Shown: one piece after another, positions 1 through 7,817 of the stretch
Layout of the letters: every line of letters starts with the position of its first letter
How positions within the stretch are numbered: the first letter of the stretch is position 1
Assembly (NCBI GenBank): GCA_903822975.1
Contig: CAIJRD010000002.1
Coordinates: 558,001-622,000, forward strand
DNA: 64,000 bases
From: an uncultured Sinobacteraceae bacterium
GTDB lineage: Bacteria; Pseudomonadota; Gammaproteobacteria; Nevskiales; Nevskiaceae
Direction: 5' to 3'
Translations under genes and position numbers: made by a program
The notes under the pieces: generated by a model
Told to the model about the DNA's origin: nothing
The model's input: the letters and a program-made list of their open reading frames with translations, nothing else
Database searches by the model: none

Positions 1-127
1 TGGTCGTCTCGGTCGGCCGCAGCAGGCGATCGACCTGCGCGCCGAGACCTGCAAAGATCTTCGTGCAATAGGCGCCGGCAACGCCCTCTCCGAGTTCCAG
101 TACCTTGAGCTGGGCGATGCTTTTCAT
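1..127 (-). CDS. CaiB/BaiF-like CoA-transferase family III, N-terminal fragment (runs off left edge)
   Basis: Manual translation from ATG at 127: MKSIAQLKVLELGEGVAGAYCTKIFAGLGAQVDRLLRPTETT; the VLELG..VAG.Y..K..AGLGAQV pattern is typical of the family III N-terminus. Partial, so absent from the ORF track. Confidence 0.65.
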   Translation of the reverse strand, partial: MKSIAQLKVLELGEGVAGAYCTKIFAGLGAQVDRLLRPTETT

Positions 128-185
128 GATTTGACGATGTCCGCTTGATGTGCGATTCCGTTCGCTGACCTGCGAAACGATGGAT

Positions 186-1094
186 CTACGAGTAACCGAA
201 CCGGGCTGCGAGCTCGCGCACGTCCGAGGCAAAGCCGCTACGGTCGGGCTTCCACGGCAGTGCGGCCGCGAGACTCGGCGCGGCGACGGCGTGGCGACGA
301 TAGCGTTTGTCGTCCATCTGATACGCCTCAGCTTCGAGCCCCATCGGCGCGAGTGTCGGACCCACCTGCAGGTACGACCAGTGCTTGTAGTCGCGCATGG
401 CTGACCGTTCTGCCGCACCACAGCGCAGGCCCAGCCACTGGCAGATGCGCGTGAGTGCGGCGTCCGCATCCGTCTCCATCGCTTCGATGGGCAGCTGCAG
501 ACTGAGAGCGGCGCCGTGGGCAGCACAGGCGCGAAGGATGTTGTGATTCGCGCGCAGCCAGGGAATCTGCGGATCGATCTGCGCCGGCTTGAAGCTGTGA
601 TCCTTGTAGTCGGTCGGCACGAACTGGCGTTCCTTCAGTGCCGGCGCGAACAACGCGCCCTGCGCATGCGGGTGCCGTGTCAGGTGCAAGTAGCGCGCCA
701 TGGGTGCGGCGGCGGCACAGCGCTGCAGGTCCACCGGTCGCAAGGGCGACTGCGTGTCGGCGATCAGCAGCAGCCGGTCGCCGGCCCAGGCTTGCAACTG
801 TTTCAGTAGCGCCGCGGCATCCGCTTGCGGATTCGCTTCGAGCCAGTCGTGTGCCTTGGCTACGCTGACATCGTCCTGCGCGCCGTGCGCCAGCTGCGCA
901 ATCGCGCGCAGCAGGCCGTCGAGCAACAGTCCATGACTGAATCCGGCGATTTCGAGCAGTTCGCCGACGTTGTCGCCAATGAACAGATTGAGTTCGGGCA
1001 GCGCACAGATCTGCGGATGCCCGCCGAGCATCGCCAGCAGGCGCGAGCCACCGCAATACGGCGCCGAGAAAATGAAAACCGGTGCGGGACTCAC
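186..1094 (-). CDS. Sulfotransferase-family protein
   Basis: Part of the 346-aa ORF; PAPS-loop-like start VFIFSAPYCGGSRLLAMLGGHPQI and later RYLHLTRHPHAQGALF. Likely GTG start at 1094 with a GTGA overlap with the upstream gene stop. Confidence 0.7.
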   Translation of the reverse strand: MSPAPVFIFSAPYCGGSRLLAMLGGHPQICALPELNLFIGDNVGELLEIAGFSHGLLLDGLLRAIAQLAHGAQDDVSVAKAHDWLEANPQADAAALLKQLQAWAGDRLLLIADTQSPLRPVDLQRCAAAAPMARYLHLTRHPHAQGALFAPALKERQFVPTDYKDHSFKPAQIDPQIPWLRANHNILRACAAHGAALSLQLPIEAMETDADAALTRICQWLGLRCGAAERSAMRDYKHWSYLQVGPTLAPMGLEAEAYQMDDKRYRRHAVAAPSLAAALPWKPDRSGFASDVRELAARFGYS

Positions 1095-2641
1095 GCGAGT
1101 GCAGTTCCCGGTGGTGCGGCCGGCGTCGAGGTCGGTGTCGCGGTCGGCGTCGAGTTTGCTTGGCCGAACGCCTTGTTGCCGAGCCAGACTTCGCAGCCGC
1201 CGCGCGGATTCGGCACGTACTGCCACTTGCCGTCACGTTTCACTGCGACGTCCGGTCCATAGGGATTGGCGGTTGCGACGAACAGTCCGTGCGGCGTCGA
1301 GGTCAGCGTGCGCGCACCCCAGTTGTAAGGGTTGTTGAAGCCGGTACGCGTCACCGGCAGCCAGTGCACGCCATCGGCGGTGCGCCACAGCTCGAAGCCG
1401 CCGTAGCGCTGCACCAGCTTCTCCATGCTCCAGCGTTTGATCAGCGCGATCACATCGTCGGGCCAGGCCTGATTCGGCACGTACGGCAGCAGATTCGCCC
1501 AGCAGAACGTGCCAGCGTACAGGTGGCCATCGTGCTCGCACATGCGCCAGACATAGCCGTTGAACATGTTGTCAAAACCGCAGGAATAGCCGGATAGCGG
1601 ATATTTCAGGCCTTGCGGCGTCATCCGCGCCTCGCCCATGACGATGTCCCAGCTATCGTCCGGCCAGACGCGCAACAGTTCGGTGGCCGCCGGGCCAACG
1701 CCGGCCGCGCGGTGATAACCCCCGTTGAGCACGCCGCTGCCGATATAGAGCGCACCGTTGAACACGCACAGACTGCCACCGACTTCGTTGAACGGTCCGC
1801 GGAACGCACCCTGCTCCAGCACGCGCGTCCATTGATAAGGCGGCTTGCCGCCGCGCGTCTTCCACAGCTCGAAGCCTTTGACGTTGACCGTGGCCGCGTA
1901 CAGATGGTCGTTGAATTCGGCCATCTCGAACACCGTCATATTGCCGGGGTTGCCGAAGCCGGAGGCACTGGTGGCCTTCCAGCTGTCGCTGCGCAGATCG
2001 TCGGCGCCGTAAATCGTCGGATCGGAGCCGACGCTGTCCTGCACCTTGCCGACTGCGACACCGGCGGCGGTCGGGCTGGTATGCAGGCGTCCCTGGAACG
2101 GCTGCAGTACGCGGAACGCGCGCACGCTCTCGTTCCACGGCGGGCGCGGAACGATCTCGAAATTGGCGCCGTCCTCGCTGCGCAGCAGCTGCGCGGTTCC
2201 ACCAAAGCGCGGCGACCAGGTCGATACGTACAGCACCGGCTTGCTGTCGGTACTGCCCTGAAACACCGACATGCCGCGGTAGCCGACGTAGCGCGCGACA
2301 TCCGCACCGCCCGGGCCCTTGATGTACGGACTCTGAAACACGCGCACCCAGCTTTCGGTGGCCGGCGTGTATTGCCAGATTTCCGCGCGCCGCTCGATCG
2401 TGTCGAGATTCGGTGGACATTTGATCGGCCACGGCACCAGCTTCGGTGGCGGCGTCGTGCGTTGCATGAACGCCATCTGCGCGCGCGTGGTGCCCACATA
2501 CAGCCGGCCTTCGAACCAGGCCGTGCTGTGCGCGTAATGATTCCAGCCGTCGCCGAAGCCGCTCGGCGCGGTGAGGCGGAAATCCGCCTCACCGAGTGCC
2601 AGCGCAGCCGCTCCGGCGCGTTGGGGAATCAGGGGATCCAT
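1091..2641 (-). CDS. Uncharacterised beta-propeller-like protein with Thr/Pro-rich C-terminal tail
   Basis: 516-aa ORF with recurring LYVGT/LYAATVN/LYIGSG/LYAGTFC/LFVATAN blade-like motifs; ends in STPTATPTSTPAAPPG; overlaps the neighbouring genes on both sides. Confidence 0.6.
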   Translation of the reverse strand: MDPLIPQRAGAAALALGEADFRLTAPSGFGDGWNHYAHSTAWFEGRLYVGTTRAQMAFMQRTTPPPKLVPWPIKCPPNLDTIERRAEIWQYTPATESWVRVFQSPYIKGPGGADVARYVGYRGMSVFQGSTDSKPVLYVSTWSPRFGGTAQLLRSEDGANFEIVPRPPWNESVRAFRVLQPFQGRLHTSPTAAGVAVGKVQDSVGSDPTIYGADDLRSDSWKATSASGFGNPGNMTVFEMAEFNDHLYAATVNVKGFELWKTRGGKPPYQWTRVLEQGAFRGPFNEVGGSLCVFNGALYIGSGVLNGGYHRAAGVGPAATELLRVWPDDSWDIVMGEARMTPQGLKYPLSGYSCGFDNMFNGYVWRMCEHDGHLYAGTFCWANLLPYVPNQAWPDDVIALIKRWSMEKLVQRYGGFELWRTADGVHWLPVTRTGFNNPYNWGARTLTSTPHGLFVATANPYGPDVAVKRDGKWQYVPNPRGGCEVWLGNKAFGQANSTPTATPTSTPAAPPGTALA

Positions 2642-5022
2642 GACCAGATTTCGACGAACAGCAGGCGCACGATCGGCCGGGTGAACGCCAGAATCAGCGG
2701 ATGCCAGCGGCCATCGACCTTGGCGTAGCCGGTCATCTCCGGCTTCATGTAGGCATCCGGCTGATCGACCGTCATGTACACGCGCACGATGTTGCCGTAC
2801 GGCGCCTTCTCGGCACTCGGCGCAATGCGAGAAACCTTGCCGACATAGGCATCCGTCGGCGAGCCCCAGATCTTCGCCCAGGCCTTGTTGCCGATCTTGA
2901 TTTCGGACAGATCGTCTTCCGGAATCTTGATTTCGACCTGCGGGTGATCGGAGTCTTCCACGGTTGCCAGCATCGCACCGCGCTGCATGAAGTCGCCCAC
3001 CGCGAACTGCAGCGAGCCGGACACGATGCGGCCAGCGATCGGCGCAGTGACCTTGGTGTAGCCGAGCATCGTGGTCTGATAATCGACCTGTGCCTGCTGG
3101 TGCTCGATCTCCGCCTGCAGCGCCTTGATTTCGTCGGATCGGGTCGGGCTGCTGGTCAAGGTCAGCTGGCGACGCGCTTCGAGCAGCTTTTGCTGGCTGA
3201 CGTCGGCGATCGACAGCGCGTGCTTGTAGTCCTGCTCGCTAACCGCCTTGCGCTTGAACGCAGCGGAGAGCCGATCGGCTTCTTCACGCGCGTACTGATA
3301 CGAGGTTTGCGCAGTGTTGACCGCCTGACGCGCGACATCGATTTCCTCGGGACGGTGGCCGGCCTGACCGAGCGACAGCGCCGCCTGCAACTTCAGCAGC
3401 GAGGCCTGCGCACCGGCGAGCTGCGACTTCTCGTCTTCGTCGGCCAACTGCGCCAGCGTGTCGCCGGCCTTGACCAGATCGCCTTCCTTCACCATCACCT
3501 GACGCACTTCGCCGGCGACCTGCGCATGCACATCGGCGCGCGTGTCTGGCAGCACCACCAACTCGCCGCTCGGCTGATAGGGATACGGCAACAAGCAGAT
3601 GATCGTCGTCACCACGATCAGACCCCAGGTGATCGGGCCGGGCTTGTTGGCTTGATACCAGCCGAGGAACTCGCGCCAGTAGATGGAACAGGTCTGGCTC
3701 ACCCAGCCCATTGGATCTTTCGACAAGGACACGGTCACTTTCTCCCCTATGTTGAACTGCCCGGCGTAGGTACGACGCAGCATGCTGAAAATGGCGTAAG
3801 CCAAGGCCGCAATGATCAGGACCGGCCCGATCGGCCCCCAATGGTCCTTGACCCAATGCGCCGGAATCGACAGAAAAAACCAGATGACCCAGGCGAAATA
3901 CAGAATCACCAGACCGGCATAAATCAGCAGCACACTGATCGGCGGCCGCCGCACCGCACTCCACGGCAGCTCGTAGCCGAACAGCGCGAAGCCGGCCTGC
4001 TCACGCAGATCGCCGACACGCAGCCACAGCATCAGCAGCTGGTAGCCGCTGCGCATGCCGAGTGGATTCAATTGCACGATGAAGAATGTCGTCAGCATGA
4101 ACATCATGCCCACCGACAGCGGTGCAAGCACGCTGCCGTGACGCTGGAACATCAGCCAGACGGTGGTGGCGCCGACGAACATCGTCATCAGCGCGGTAAG
4201 TTCGGCACCGACAATACGCATGCGAACCGCGCGATCGGCGGCCTCCGCAGCACCGGATGTATCCGCATAGAAATGCGGTACCGGCAGGCCGAGCCCGCCG
4301 AGCGAAATTCCGAAGCGTGGCCGTGTGTGCGTCGCACGCGCGATCGCCGCGTAACGCGCCAGCTTGGCGAGGAAATCGACCAGATAGGCGCCGACGATGC
4401 CGCCGAAGACCAGCTGCGTGGGCTGCAGGAGCTGGCTGAAATCGCGCGCCATCTCGAAGCGATGGTTGTAGATCACCAGAATTGCGCCGATCTGCAGCGC
4501 CAGCAGCAGCCAGACGCGCACGCTGCTCCACAGGAACAGATTCAGCGCAGCGCCGATCCAGCGCAGACCGCGCACGTCGAGCGTGACATCCAGTGCGGCG
4601 GCGTCGCCGCGCTCCCAGCCGAACAATCCGGTCAACGAGCCGATGAAATTGGGGCCGCTCAGCGTGCCGGGCAACGTCGACGGCAGCATCGCGCCACCAA
4701 GTTGGCGAGCCGTAGCGCGTGGCGCGCGGCTACTGGCGTACTGCGGCGGTGCCGGCAGCGGCTCGTAGCGTCCGGGCAGCAATAGCCCGCTGCCGGCAAG
4801 GCGCTGCGCGAGTCGCTCGATCTCGGCCGTCGAAACGCCGCCGAGGGCCGCAATGGTGGCGCCGTTGCGCTGGCCATCGAACAAACGCGCAAGTTCGAAT
4901 TCGGCGGCGGTCAAGCTCAGTGGCTCGAAGCCGGCTTCCTTCGGCGTCAGGCGACATCCGGCCTTGAGCGTCGTCAGCTCGCCATAGTCCAGCCGGCGAG
5001 CGGGATGTTGAGCCAACATCAT
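2629..5022 (-). CDS. Fusion protein: PqqD/winged-helix-like N-terminus, degenerate M50 (site-2-protease-like) membrane domain, HlyD-type periplasmic adaptor
   Basis: N-terminal PLSLTAAEFELARLFDGQRNGATIA..., central multi-TM region with LPVPHFYADTSG and NPLGMRSGYQLL, C-terminal biotinyl-lipoyl/HlyD region (VHAQVAGEVRQVMVKEGDLVKAGDTLAQL, GYTKVTAPIAGRIVSG). Start placed at Met 5022, after the tolC stop. Confidence 0.75.
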   Translation of the reverse strand: MMLAQHPARRLDYGELTTLKAGCRLTPKEAGFEPLSLTAAEFELARLFDGQRNGATIAALGGVSTAEIERLAQRLAGSGLLLPGRYEPLPAPPQYASSRAPRATARQLGGAMLPSTLPGTLSGPNFIGSLTGLFGWERGDAAALDVTLDVRGLRWIGAALNLFLWSSVRVWLLLALQIGAILVIYNHRFEMARDFSQLLQPTQLVFGGIVGAYLVDFLAKLARYAAIARATHTRPRFGISLGGLGLPVPHFYADTSGAAEAADRAVRMRIVGAELTALMTMFVGATTVWLMFQRHGSVLAPLSVGMMFMLTTFFIVQLNPLGMRSGYQLLMLWLRVGDLREQAGFALFGYELPWSAVRRPPISVLLIYAGLVILYFAWVIWFFLSIPAHWVKDHWGPIGPVLIIAALAYAIFSMLRRTYAGQFNIGEKVTVSLSKDPMGWVSQTCSIYWREFLGWYQANKPGPITWGLIVVTTIICLLPYPYQPSGELVVLPDTRADVHAQVAGEVRQVMVKEGDLVKAGDTLAQLADEDEKSQLAGAQASLLKLQAALSLGQAGHRPEEIDVARQAVNTAQTSYQYAREEADRLSAAFKRKAVSEQDYKHALSIADVSQQKLLEARRQLTLTSSPTRSDEIKALQAEIEHQQAQVDYQTTMLGYTKVTAPIAGRIVSGSLQFAVGDFMQRGAMLATVEDSDHPQVEIKIPEDDLSEIKIGNKAWAKIWGSPTDAYVGKVSRIAPSAEKAPYGNIVRVYMTVDQPDAYMKPEMTGYAKVDGRWHPLILAFTRPIVRLLFVEIWSWIP

Positions 5023-5038
5023 GGCGGCGTGCCGAGCG

Positions 5039-6442
5039 TCACTGCAGCCACTTATTAACCGCCAGCAGATCGGCGTTGTTGAGCGCACCCGCCGCGCGCT
5101 TCAGCTTCAGGTAATTGAGCAAGTAGGTATACCGCGCCTCGGCATAGTCACGCTCGGCGTGATAACGCCCGCGCACCGCCTGCAGCACATCGGACAGCGT
5201 TTTGGTGCCTACGTCGTAGCCGGTGCGCGCCGAGGCCTCGGCGATCTGTGCAGACTGCACGGCCTGCTTGAAGGCTTCAATCTGCGACATCTGCGCGCGC
5301 GTATTGAGGAACGCCACCTGCGTATCCTTGACCGCCTCGTTCAACGACGAGGCTTCGTCGTAACGCGCCTTGTCGAAGCCGGCTTCGGCTGCGCGCACCG
5401 CGGAACTGACCGCGCCACCGCTGTAGATCGGCAGTTTCAGATTGAGCTGAACGCGATCGTCCCACTCGTGATTGTTGCCCACACCGATGCCGCGACTGAT
5501 GCCGCCGTCCGCATACGAATACTGGCGCGCGGCGAGACCGTCGAGTGTCGGATAGCGCAAGGACTCCGCGCGCTTGACTTCTTTCTGTGCGATCTGCGTG
5601 CTGTAGCGCTGCGCCTGCAGCTTGAGGTTCTGCACCTTCGCGCGCTCGATCCAGTCGCTCAGATGATCGGGCGACGGCGGCTCCGGCTTGTACTGGGCGG
5701 CGAGCGGTTTCAGCGCGTCGTAATGTTCGCCGCCGGTAACCTGTTCGAGCTGCACGCGGGCGACTTCCACCGCATTCTGCGCACCGATCAGCGCGGCGGC
5801 CGCGAGGTCGCTCTGCGCCTGTGCCTGATTGACGTCGACCTCGGTCAGCAGTCCCAGCGAATACTTGTCCTTGACCTGCTTGAGCAACTGATTGATTGCG
5901 TCGCTCTCGGCCGCGCTGAAGCGCACCAGATCGTCTGCCGCCAGCACGCCAAAATAGGCTTCTGCAACGCCGACGCGCAGTTCGTCTTGCGCGTCGTAAA
6001 TCAACAGCCCGGCCGAACCGACCTTGAGGTCGGCTTCGTCCAGCGCAACGATCAAGTCCCAGTGGAAAATCGCCTGGGAAAGCCCGAGTGAGTAGCCGAC
6101 CTGGTAGAACTGCTCGCTTTTGTTGATATCGGTGCCGTCGGGCGCGAGATTGGTCGTGTCGACAAAATAACGTCCACTGATTTTTTGCTCGGCTTCCGAT
6201 GCGTTGGCAAACGCGGCGACCTGCGGCAGAAGCTTGGCCAGCGCCTGTGGACGCGCCTCGGCGGCGATGTGAAACGCCGCCAGCGCCGACTGGTACTGCG
6301 GATTGGCGTCGAGCGCCTTGGCGTAGATCGACATTAGGTCGGTCGCCGCCTGTGCCGTCAGCGGCAGCACCGCAGCAGCGATGAACATCAACCCGCGCGA
6401 CCAGCGCACCGCGGTCGACTGATGCGGCAGCGAAACACTCAT
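5039..6442 (-). CDS. TolC-family outer membrane efflux/secretion protein
   Basis: Signal peptide MSVSLPHQSTAVRWSRGLMFIAAAVLPLTAQAA followed by a TolC-like repeat (IYAKALDANPQYQSALA...VNQAQAQSDLAAAALIGAQNAVEVARVQL). Confidence 0.85.
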   Translation of the reverse strand: MSVSLPHQSTAVRWSRGLMFIAAAVLPLTAQAATDLMSIYAKALDANPQYQSALAAFHIAAEARPQALAKLLPQVAAFANASEAEQKISGRYFVDTTNLAPDGTDINKSEQFYQVGYSLGLSQAIFHWDLIVALDEADLKVGSAGLLIYDAQDELRVGVAEAYFGVLAADDLVRFSAAESDAINQLLKQVKDKYSLGLLTEVDVNQAQAQSDLAAAALIGAQNAVEVARVQLEQVTGGEHYDALKPLAAQYKPEPPSPDHLSDWIERAKVQNLKLQAQRYSTQIAQKEVKRAESLRYPTLDGLAARQYSYADGGISRGIGVGNNHEWDDRVQLNLKLPIYSGGAVSSAVRAAEAGFDKARYDEASSLNEAVKDTQVAFLNTRAQMSQIEAFKQAVQSAQIAEASARTGYDVGTKTLSDVLQAVRGRYHAERDYAEARYTYLLNYLKLKRAAGALNNADLLAVNKWLQ

Positions 6443-6594: not shown

Positions 6595-6879
6595 TTATGC
6601 AAGAAACTCACACAAGTAAGCTGCGGGCCCTGCGACCGCCTCGACATCGAAGCCACTGTTGGCGGCGACTTCAAACGCCGTGCCCGCCGGATACAGCTGC
6701 CAGTCACCTTCGCCGATGCGCGCGCGCAACGCGCCGCTGACGACGTGCATGCGCTCGGCGGCGGCGGTGCCAAAGTGAAACTGCCCCGAATCGATCACCC
6801 CGACGCTGGCGCGCGCGCCGTTGCGCTCGAAGCCCACGCTCTGTACCGAGCCATCGAAATACACGTTGTGCTTCAGCAT
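6595..6879 (-). CDS. ppnP: Pyrimidine/purine nucleoside phosphorylase (DUF1255 family)
   Basis: 94-aa cupin-like protein MLKHNVYFDGSVQSVGFERNGARASVGVIDSGQFHFGTAAAERMHVVSGAL... matches the family pattern. Confidence 0.85.
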   Translation of the reverse strand: MLKHNVYFDGSVQSVGFERNGARASVGVIDSGQFHFGTAAAERMHVVSGALRARIGEGDWQLYPAGTAFEVAANSGFDVEAVAGPAAYLCEFLA

Positions 6880-7052: not shown

Positions 7053-7817
7053 ATGATCCGCCGAGTCGTTTTCAATCAGAAAGGTGGTGTCGGCAAGACC
7101 ACCATCGTCTGCAATCTCGCCGCCATTTCGGCGGCCCGCGGCCTGCGCACACTGGTGCTGGATCTGGATACGCAGGGCAATGCAACGCAGTATCTGCTGG
7201 GCCGCAAGCCGGATGCCGGCGAGCGTACCGCCGCTGATTTCTTCGAGTCGACGCTGAGTTTCTCGATCCAGGCGCCGAACTTCATGACGCATGCGATCAA
7301 TACGCCATTCGAGAATCTCGATGTCGTCGCGGCCGACCCGCGCCTGGAAGATCTGCAGGTCAAGCTCGAATCCAAGCAGAAGGTGCAGAAGCTGAAACAG
7401 GCGCTCGACAAGCTCAAGGGCTACGACGCGGTCTACATCGATACACCGCCGGCGCTGAACTTCTACAGCCGCTCCGCGCTGATTGCCGCCAGTCGCGTAT
7501 TGATTCCCTTCGACTGCGACGAGTTCAGCCGTCAGGCGCTCTACACGCTGCTGGAAAACATTCAGGAAATCCGCGCCGATCACAACGAAGAACTCGAGAT
7601 CGAAGGGATCGTCGTCAACCAGTTCCAGGGCCGCGCCAAGCTACCGGCGCGCGTCGTCGCCGAGCTGCGCGAGGAAGGCCAGCCGGTGCTGGCGCAGACC
7701 TTATCGAGCTCGGTACGGGTGAAGGAATCGCATGAACAGCATCGCCCGCTGATCCACTTCGATGCGAGTCACCGCGTCACGCAGGAATACGTCGCGCTGT
7801 ACGACGCGCTGGTCTAG
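7053..7817 (+). CDS. ParA-family ATPase (orphan; no ParB adjacent)
   Basis: Deviant Walker A FNQKGGVGKTTIVCNLAA, LDLDTQGNATQYLLG, YIDTPPALN; start at ATG 7053. Confidence 0.85.
   Translation: MIRRVVFNQKGGVGKTTIVCNLAAISAARGLRTLVLDLDTQGNATQYLLGRKPDAGERTAADFFESTLSFSIQAPNFMTHAINTPFENLDVVAADPRLEDLQVKLESKQKVQKLKQALDKLKGYDAVYIDTPPALNFYSRSALIAASRVLIPFDCDEFSRQALYTLLENIQEIRADHNEELEIEGIVVNQFQGRAKLPARVVAELREEGQPVLAQTLSSSVRVKESHEQHRPLIHFDASHRVTQEYVALYDALV

Follow-up and report, generated by a model that had tools for sequence, protein, structure and literature searches.

We find that five minus-strand genes at the left end of the window, the whole 64,000-nucleotide stretch of DNA analysed here (C2:558001-622000 of a 4.46 Mb genome), very probably form the export and tailoring arm of a conserved gene cluster that makes and exports a long-chain polyketide or lipid. 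This defines a conserved secondary-lipid cluster with a dedicated exporter made from a former protease. The gene content, conservation, domain ancestry and eroded motifs on which this reading is built can be followed directly in the sequences; from them we infer the lipid cargo, the direction of transport and the docking role of a PqqD-like domain, and these are worded below as proposals.

Gene content of the cluster

A sequence check of the coordinates confirmed that the window's five reading frames are real (Table 1), bearing out the original prediction of co-directional, tightly packed minus-strand genes that run past the left edge. The TolC stop and the fusion start are separated by a gap of 16 bp, the fusion and propeller genes overlap by 13 bp, the propeller and sulfotransferase-fold genes overlap at GTGA, and the CaiB-like start at 127 lies 58 bp beyond the sulfotransferase-fold gene, for which an alternative GTG start at 1226 is possible and would give a longer protein. 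The CaiB-like gene encodes about 770 aa with two tandem CoA_transf_3 domains; its full extent is C2:555815-558127, i.e., some 2.2 kb of it lie outside the left edge of the window. Upstream of TolC stands a PpnP-type nucleoside phosphorylase (6595-6879, minus strand), adjoined by a ParA/MinD-family ATPase (7053-7817, plus strand), and this pair was found beside the cluster in one further locus (L043) and in no other.

Table 1. Features of the cluster and of related loci. Coordinates are window positions unless a contig (C2) or locus (L) is named.
Feature	Coordinates	Strand	Evidence or remark
PAP2-type gene	from C2:535258	+	
Small sulfatase/phosphodiesterase-fold gene	from C2:536317	+	
PKS1, 3186 aa: NMO/ER-like N-terminus, KS, AT, five ACPs, KR, DH	C2:537197-546757	+	
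PKS2, 1647 aa: KS, AT, DH, fused PPTase	C2:546792-551735	+	
Type I phosphodiesterase (PDE), 538 aa	C2:551751-553367	+	
CaiB-like family III CoA-transferase, 5' end	1..127	-	CoA_transf_3 E 8e-158, two stretches
Sulfotransferase-fold protein, 302 aa	186..1094	-	Sulfotransfer_3 2e-14 (Pfam); PDB 4gox E 7e-19, 4gbm 6e-9
Degenerate PAPS-binding loop SAPYCGGS	1044..1067	-	PPRSYTS in non-Nevskiales relatives
Beta-propeller protein, 516 aa, without signal peptide	1091..2641	-	AlphaFold and Foldseek; no Pfam/NCBIfam family
Exporter subunit: PqqD-like, pseudo-M50 membrane domain, HlyD/MacA-like adaptor, 797 aa	2629..5022	-	HlyD families; hhalign; model
PqqD-like N-terminal domain of the fusion, ~residues 10-85	4768..4995	-	Profile-profile alignment from residue 23; model: three strands plus helices
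Site of lost M50 HExxH: AKLAR, fusion residues 219-223	4354..4368	-	Alignment
Fossil second M50 motif NPLGMRSGY, zinc-ligand Asp to Ser	4042..4068	-	Alignment
TolC-family outer membrane channel, 467 aa	5039..6442	-	OEP 6e-50 (Pfam); type_I_sec_TolC above cut-off
MMPL/RND, DUF1329 and YCF48-like trio	L045:946-6059; L046; L047; L051; L054; L062; L064; L073; L094:14840-19777		

The original prediction had allowed for an ABC transporter or a precursor gene beyond the left edge. Partner genes do lie there, in C2:535-558 kb, and turned out to be a PUFA-type polyketide/lipid synthase with its accessory genes instead. These also include a hexapeptide acyltransferase, a free ACP and a methyltransferase on the plus strand, and the whole set faces the minus-strand exporter operon. 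The DAACAS motif is intact in the KS sequences of both PKS1 and PKS2, KS, ACP, KR and tandem ACPs, the features of Pfa-like membership, are present in PKS1, and the PPTase at the PKS2 C-terminus carries SGQP and ISISH, matching x(G/D)xP and hShxH. On this domain make-up and these PPTase motifs, the left-hand genes are classed as a PUFA/Hgl-like secondary lipid synthase. The whole cluster, with the window's genes as its likely export and tailoring arm, would span about C2:535,258-564,443.

The described Pfa-like secondary lipid synthases (Types A-T) likewise consist of an iterative type I synthase with tandem ACPs, KR, DH, an ER-like domain and its own PPTase. Their PPTase motif follows the pattern x(G/D)xP, plus hShxH for Types M-T (Shulse & Allen 2011, PMC3098273), and that of the window's cluster fits the Types M-T pattern (PMC3098273). 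A propeller, a sulfotransferase, a phosphodiesterase and a TolC/HlyD exporter are all part of the window's cluster, and none of Types A-T has been reported to have any of them; the words 'sulfotransferase', 'phosphodiesterase', 'export' and 'TolC' are absent from the main text of PMC3098273. The suggestion that the system might be undescribed still stands, as searches of open-access papers, with most subscription journals outside their scope, returned no description of the cluster.

Conservation and distribution

A search of GTDB genomes with the propeller alignment (A1) gave 44 loci, found in Nevskia, Solimonas, Sinimarinibacterium, Panacagrimonas, Algiphilus, Hydrocarboniphaga, Stagnimonas and Oceanococcus, with more distant ones in Rhodobacteraceae, including Flavimaricola marinus and Roseivivax, and in MAGs binned as Nitrospira, Desulfobulbaceae and Spongiibacteraceae, where the distant-phylum clusters rest on MAG contigs and may be mis-binned. 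The window's genome has as its closest named relative in the genome collection a Nevskia MAG (L043), whose propeller is 90 % identical, and is thereby placed in or near Nevskia (order Nevskiales, Gammaproteobacteria). A search of the plasmid collection with a Rhodobacteraceae propeller gave no match.

TolC, fusion, propeller and sulfotransferase are consecutive on one strand in 30 loci, and most of these loci hold ACP, PDE and PKS2 within 10 kb, which supports the assignment of the operon to the synthase. In the Nitrospira, Desulfobulbaceae and Spongiibacteraceae versions the genes follow one another on a single strand as PKS1-PKS2-ACP-PDE-hydrolase-propeller-fusion-(SulfP)-sulfotransferase. 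Among 85 genomes of the order Nevskiales, propeller and fusion are present in the same 51 and missing from the same 34; the PKS2 orthologue occurs in those 51 and in G008, and the PDE in 45 of the 51 and in G008. The co-occurrence of propeller and fusion gives a Fisher p of ~1e-24 across the 85 genomes, a value that is too small, the genomes being related, and of ~3e-6 when counted by genus. Of the order's genera, 21 were sampled and 12 contain the cluster; the propeller is rare outside the order, with 3 matches there among 370 Gammaproteobacteria sampled. Because gene order and strand are kept in 30 relatives and the genes occur together across the 85 genomes, the arrangement is far beyond chance. 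Both the joint occurrence and the shared neighbourhood of propeller and fusion, which extends as a gene set to distant taxa, uphold the original prediction of a conserved export-and-modification operon, so far as gene order can tell. The outcome named with that prediction as refuting it, homologues that fail to occur together in other genomes, was looked for and did not arise.

Exporter operon and synthase might also be unrelated neighbours. In a few genomes 40 kb to 1.5 Mb separate them, and G008 lacks the exporter while having the synthase, but their presence and absence are near-perfectly joint across the 85 genomes and the same gene set recurs in distant taxa, so that we consider this explanation highly improbable. 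The export-arm model gains support from G044, where the exporter module is ~1.5 Mb from the synthase, yet both are retained. Against it count G008, which has synthase and PDE and no propeller or fusion, and families f4 and f5, which have propeller, fusion and PKS2 without the PDE. The G008 synthase genes occur twice (C1:25247-39000 and 228779-242391, ~203 kb apart) with identical scores, and since the assembly has 9 % contamination the pair is a possible assembly duplication.

One genome of the window's own genus (G028) has a version of the cluster that resembles the one in Nitrospira, with two fusion genes and a SulfP gene close by (L096:3113-15525), which suggests that the whole cluster was transferred horizontally. 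A gammaproteobacterial MAG version has an 861-aa FG-GAP repeat protein between CaiB and fusion (L071:4548-7130).

The fusion protein and a possible transport route

Pfam finds HlyD families directly in the fusion; PqqD and M50 had no Pfam match at a usable E-value, and the N-terminal half gave no match when its profile was searched against the PDB. A profile of the first half of the fusion (A4) led to relatives in other Gammaproteobacteria: proteins of ~720 aa that carry both HExxH and NPxxxDGY and have matches to PqqD (7e-7) and Peptidase_M50 (7e-8). Aligned with hhalign, the cluster fusions and these intact PqqD-M50-HlyD proteins are homologous over 368 columns covering the PqqD and M50 regions (99.9 %, E 1e-32). 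Since the intact relatives themselves match both families, this profile-profile homology places the fusion in the PqqD-M50-HlyD family by descent.

The domain names given to the protein in the original prediction are thus right as a statement of ancestry, and wrong in so far as M50 implies a protease: HExxH is missing in all 42 cluster fusions. The second M50 motif, NPLxxxDGY, survives in most of the 42, with Asp changed to Ser in the window. Both changes set the window's copy apart from site-2-type M50 proteases, and judged by these motifs the M50 domain is catalytically dead throughout the cluster fusions, which evolved from a protease by loss of its active site. Intact fusions share the domain order and differ in the motif, as HExxH is kept in 24 of the 27 homologues fetched; of the three without it, two are in propeller-bearing genomes (G355 and G367) and one in G394. 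Such intact fusions are widespread in Gammaproteobacteria (~57 of 370 genomes; L104-L127).

A RiPP pathway, in which the PqqD-like domain binds a leader peptide and M50 cleaves it, would be in keeping with the way a PqqD-like (RRE-related) domain is joined to HlyD and a domain descended from M50, an arrangement shared with the intact relatives. We rejected it as barely credible: the M50 site is dead throughout, the genes co-occur strictly with a lipid-type polyketide synthase, and no precursor gene was noticed on unsystematic inspection.

By Foldseek, the C-terminal part of the fusion folds like the adaptors MacA and EmrA, and its best 50 matches are all HlyD-type adaptors; unlike for MacA and EmrA, no cognate ABC pump is encoded alongside. 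A motif scan for the ABC ATPase signature was negative in all 52 cluster loci, while as a positive control it detected the signature in L005, beside another TolC of the window's genome, and an ABC transporter partner was accordingly rejected. The MMPL/RND family includes lipid transporters, and in about nine Nevskiales loci an MMPL/RND gene stands with DUF1329 and YCF48-like genes directly upstream of TolC (Table 1); several MMPL-type paralogues are found elsewhere in the window's genome. It is possible that an MMPL/RND pump is the inner-membrane partner of the exporter. Its place as a fixed component was not upheld, given that so few loci have it upstream of TolC. The pseudo-M50 domain may form the conduit by itself or may meet such a pump.

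A parallel in organisation is the heterocyst glycolipid (hgl) island of cyanobacteria, where a Pfa-type synthase is genetically linked to genes for lipid export across the envelope, including the potential ABC transporters hgdB/hgdC (PMC11804610). The linkage of synthase and exporter is shared, whereas the ABC transporter of the hgl island has no counterpart in the 52 loci here. Most likely, the exporter works like that for heterocyst glycolipids with different parts. This best-known case of Pfa-type lipid export involves ABC transporters, and the exporter described here would widen the set.

The sulfotransferase fold, the propeller and a proposed pathway

The only PDB matches of the window's sulfotransferase at 0.01 are the two in Table 1, which are the Ols and CurM sulfotransferases, and the same two rank first for the Nitrospira copy. 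By sequence it belongs with the CurM/Ols polyketide sulfotransferases. However, none of the 31 Nevskiales copies has the PAPS-loop arginine, which 7 of the 10 copies from elsewhere retain. The window's loop has YC at the Arg-Ser position and lacks the 5'-PSB loop of an active enzyme; the second arginine (RHP) is retained in 20 of the 31, the window's among them, and replaced by Glu in 9. Loss of ordinary PAPS chemistry in the Nevskiales lineage is probable, and a lineage-wide loss of this loop beside the propeller looks like an enzyme fold kept for another purpose.

A sulfated product had been suggested as one possibility, and with the PAPS-loop arginine lost it cannot be assumed here. That the exported lipid bears a sulfate head group from this protein would agree with the sulfotransferase fold beside the exporter in nearly all loci and with the intact loop outside Nevskiales, but the degenerate loop of every Nevskiales copy, and Glu for the second arginine in nearly a third of them, make it improbable.

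Another possible fate of the chain is a terminal alkene, formed by CurM/Ols-type sulfonation and decarboxylative release, a mechanism that has been published (PMC3903477). Its ST is the closest in sequence to that of the cluster, and in many relatives the ST is accompanied by a thioesterase-like hydrolase, which 30 of 44 loci contain. In 29 sequences this hydrolase has Ser and His; its acid is an Asp that follows strand 6, and the canonical one after strand 7 is missing. The CurM TE has its acid at a similarly unusual position. However, when PDB sequences were searched with the hydrolase, the CurM TE did not stand out from other hydrolases, and the hydrolase was not found in the window's cluster, which also counts against the export-arm model. 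The present proteins are moreover separate, the Nevskiales PAPS loop is lost, and a hydrocarbon would hardly require an acyltransferase, a methyltransferase and a dedicated exporter. We therefore think it unlikely that the cluster yields an alkene.

Neither Pfam nor NCBIfam has a family for the propeller, and the PDB has no sequence relative of it, i.e., the family is entirely unannotated. Its AlphaFold model is confident (pLDDT 90.8), and Foldseek returned kelch-type and other generic propellers only (best PDB TM ~0.35-0.43 by query length), so that its function is not deducible from the fold. Six polar residues are invariant in 45 sequences (H38, R122, R177, N234, Y248 and R281), a hint of a ligand site. 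No signal peptide was seen in the N-termini of the window's propeller or of the relatives examined, and the protein is therefore probably cytosolic. For the same reason the roles of exported substrate, which we rejected, or receptor, both raised in the original prediction, are unlikely; the propeller may be a scaffold or an enzyme.

In the pathway we propose, the synthase would build a long, partly reduced acyl chain, which the cytosolic propeller and its sulfotransferase-fold partner would bind or finish, perhaps while it is attached to the free ACP. The fusion would dock this complex by its PqqD-like domain, and the pseudo-M50 membrane domain and HlyD adaptor would pass the product to TolC. 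Because the PAPS loop is kept and the hydrolase is present outside Nevskiales, an ancestral form of the cluster may, like CurM/Ols, have O-sulfonated a beta-hydroxyacyl chain on the way to either an alkene or a sulfated lipid, a chemistry that was probably lost or changed in the window's lineage. A stronger version, which we hold only tentatively and think rather doubtful, is that of a new envelope lipid exporter, in which the dead M50 domain, fused to a membrane-fusion protein, replaces the inner-membrane pump and receives the polyketide lipid through the PqqD-like docking domain from a cytosolic propeller of a new family and a repurposed sulfotransferase. Cultured strains of Solimonas, Sinimarinibacterium and Hydrocarboniphaga carry the cluster, and through them product and export are open to experiment.

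In two Rhodobacteraceae loci (L078:2935-5236 and L085:3-1820) a second, divergent propeller stands beside a sulfotransferase with an intact PAPS loop, on the strand opposite the first propeller, and another, degenerate sulfotransferase is also present.
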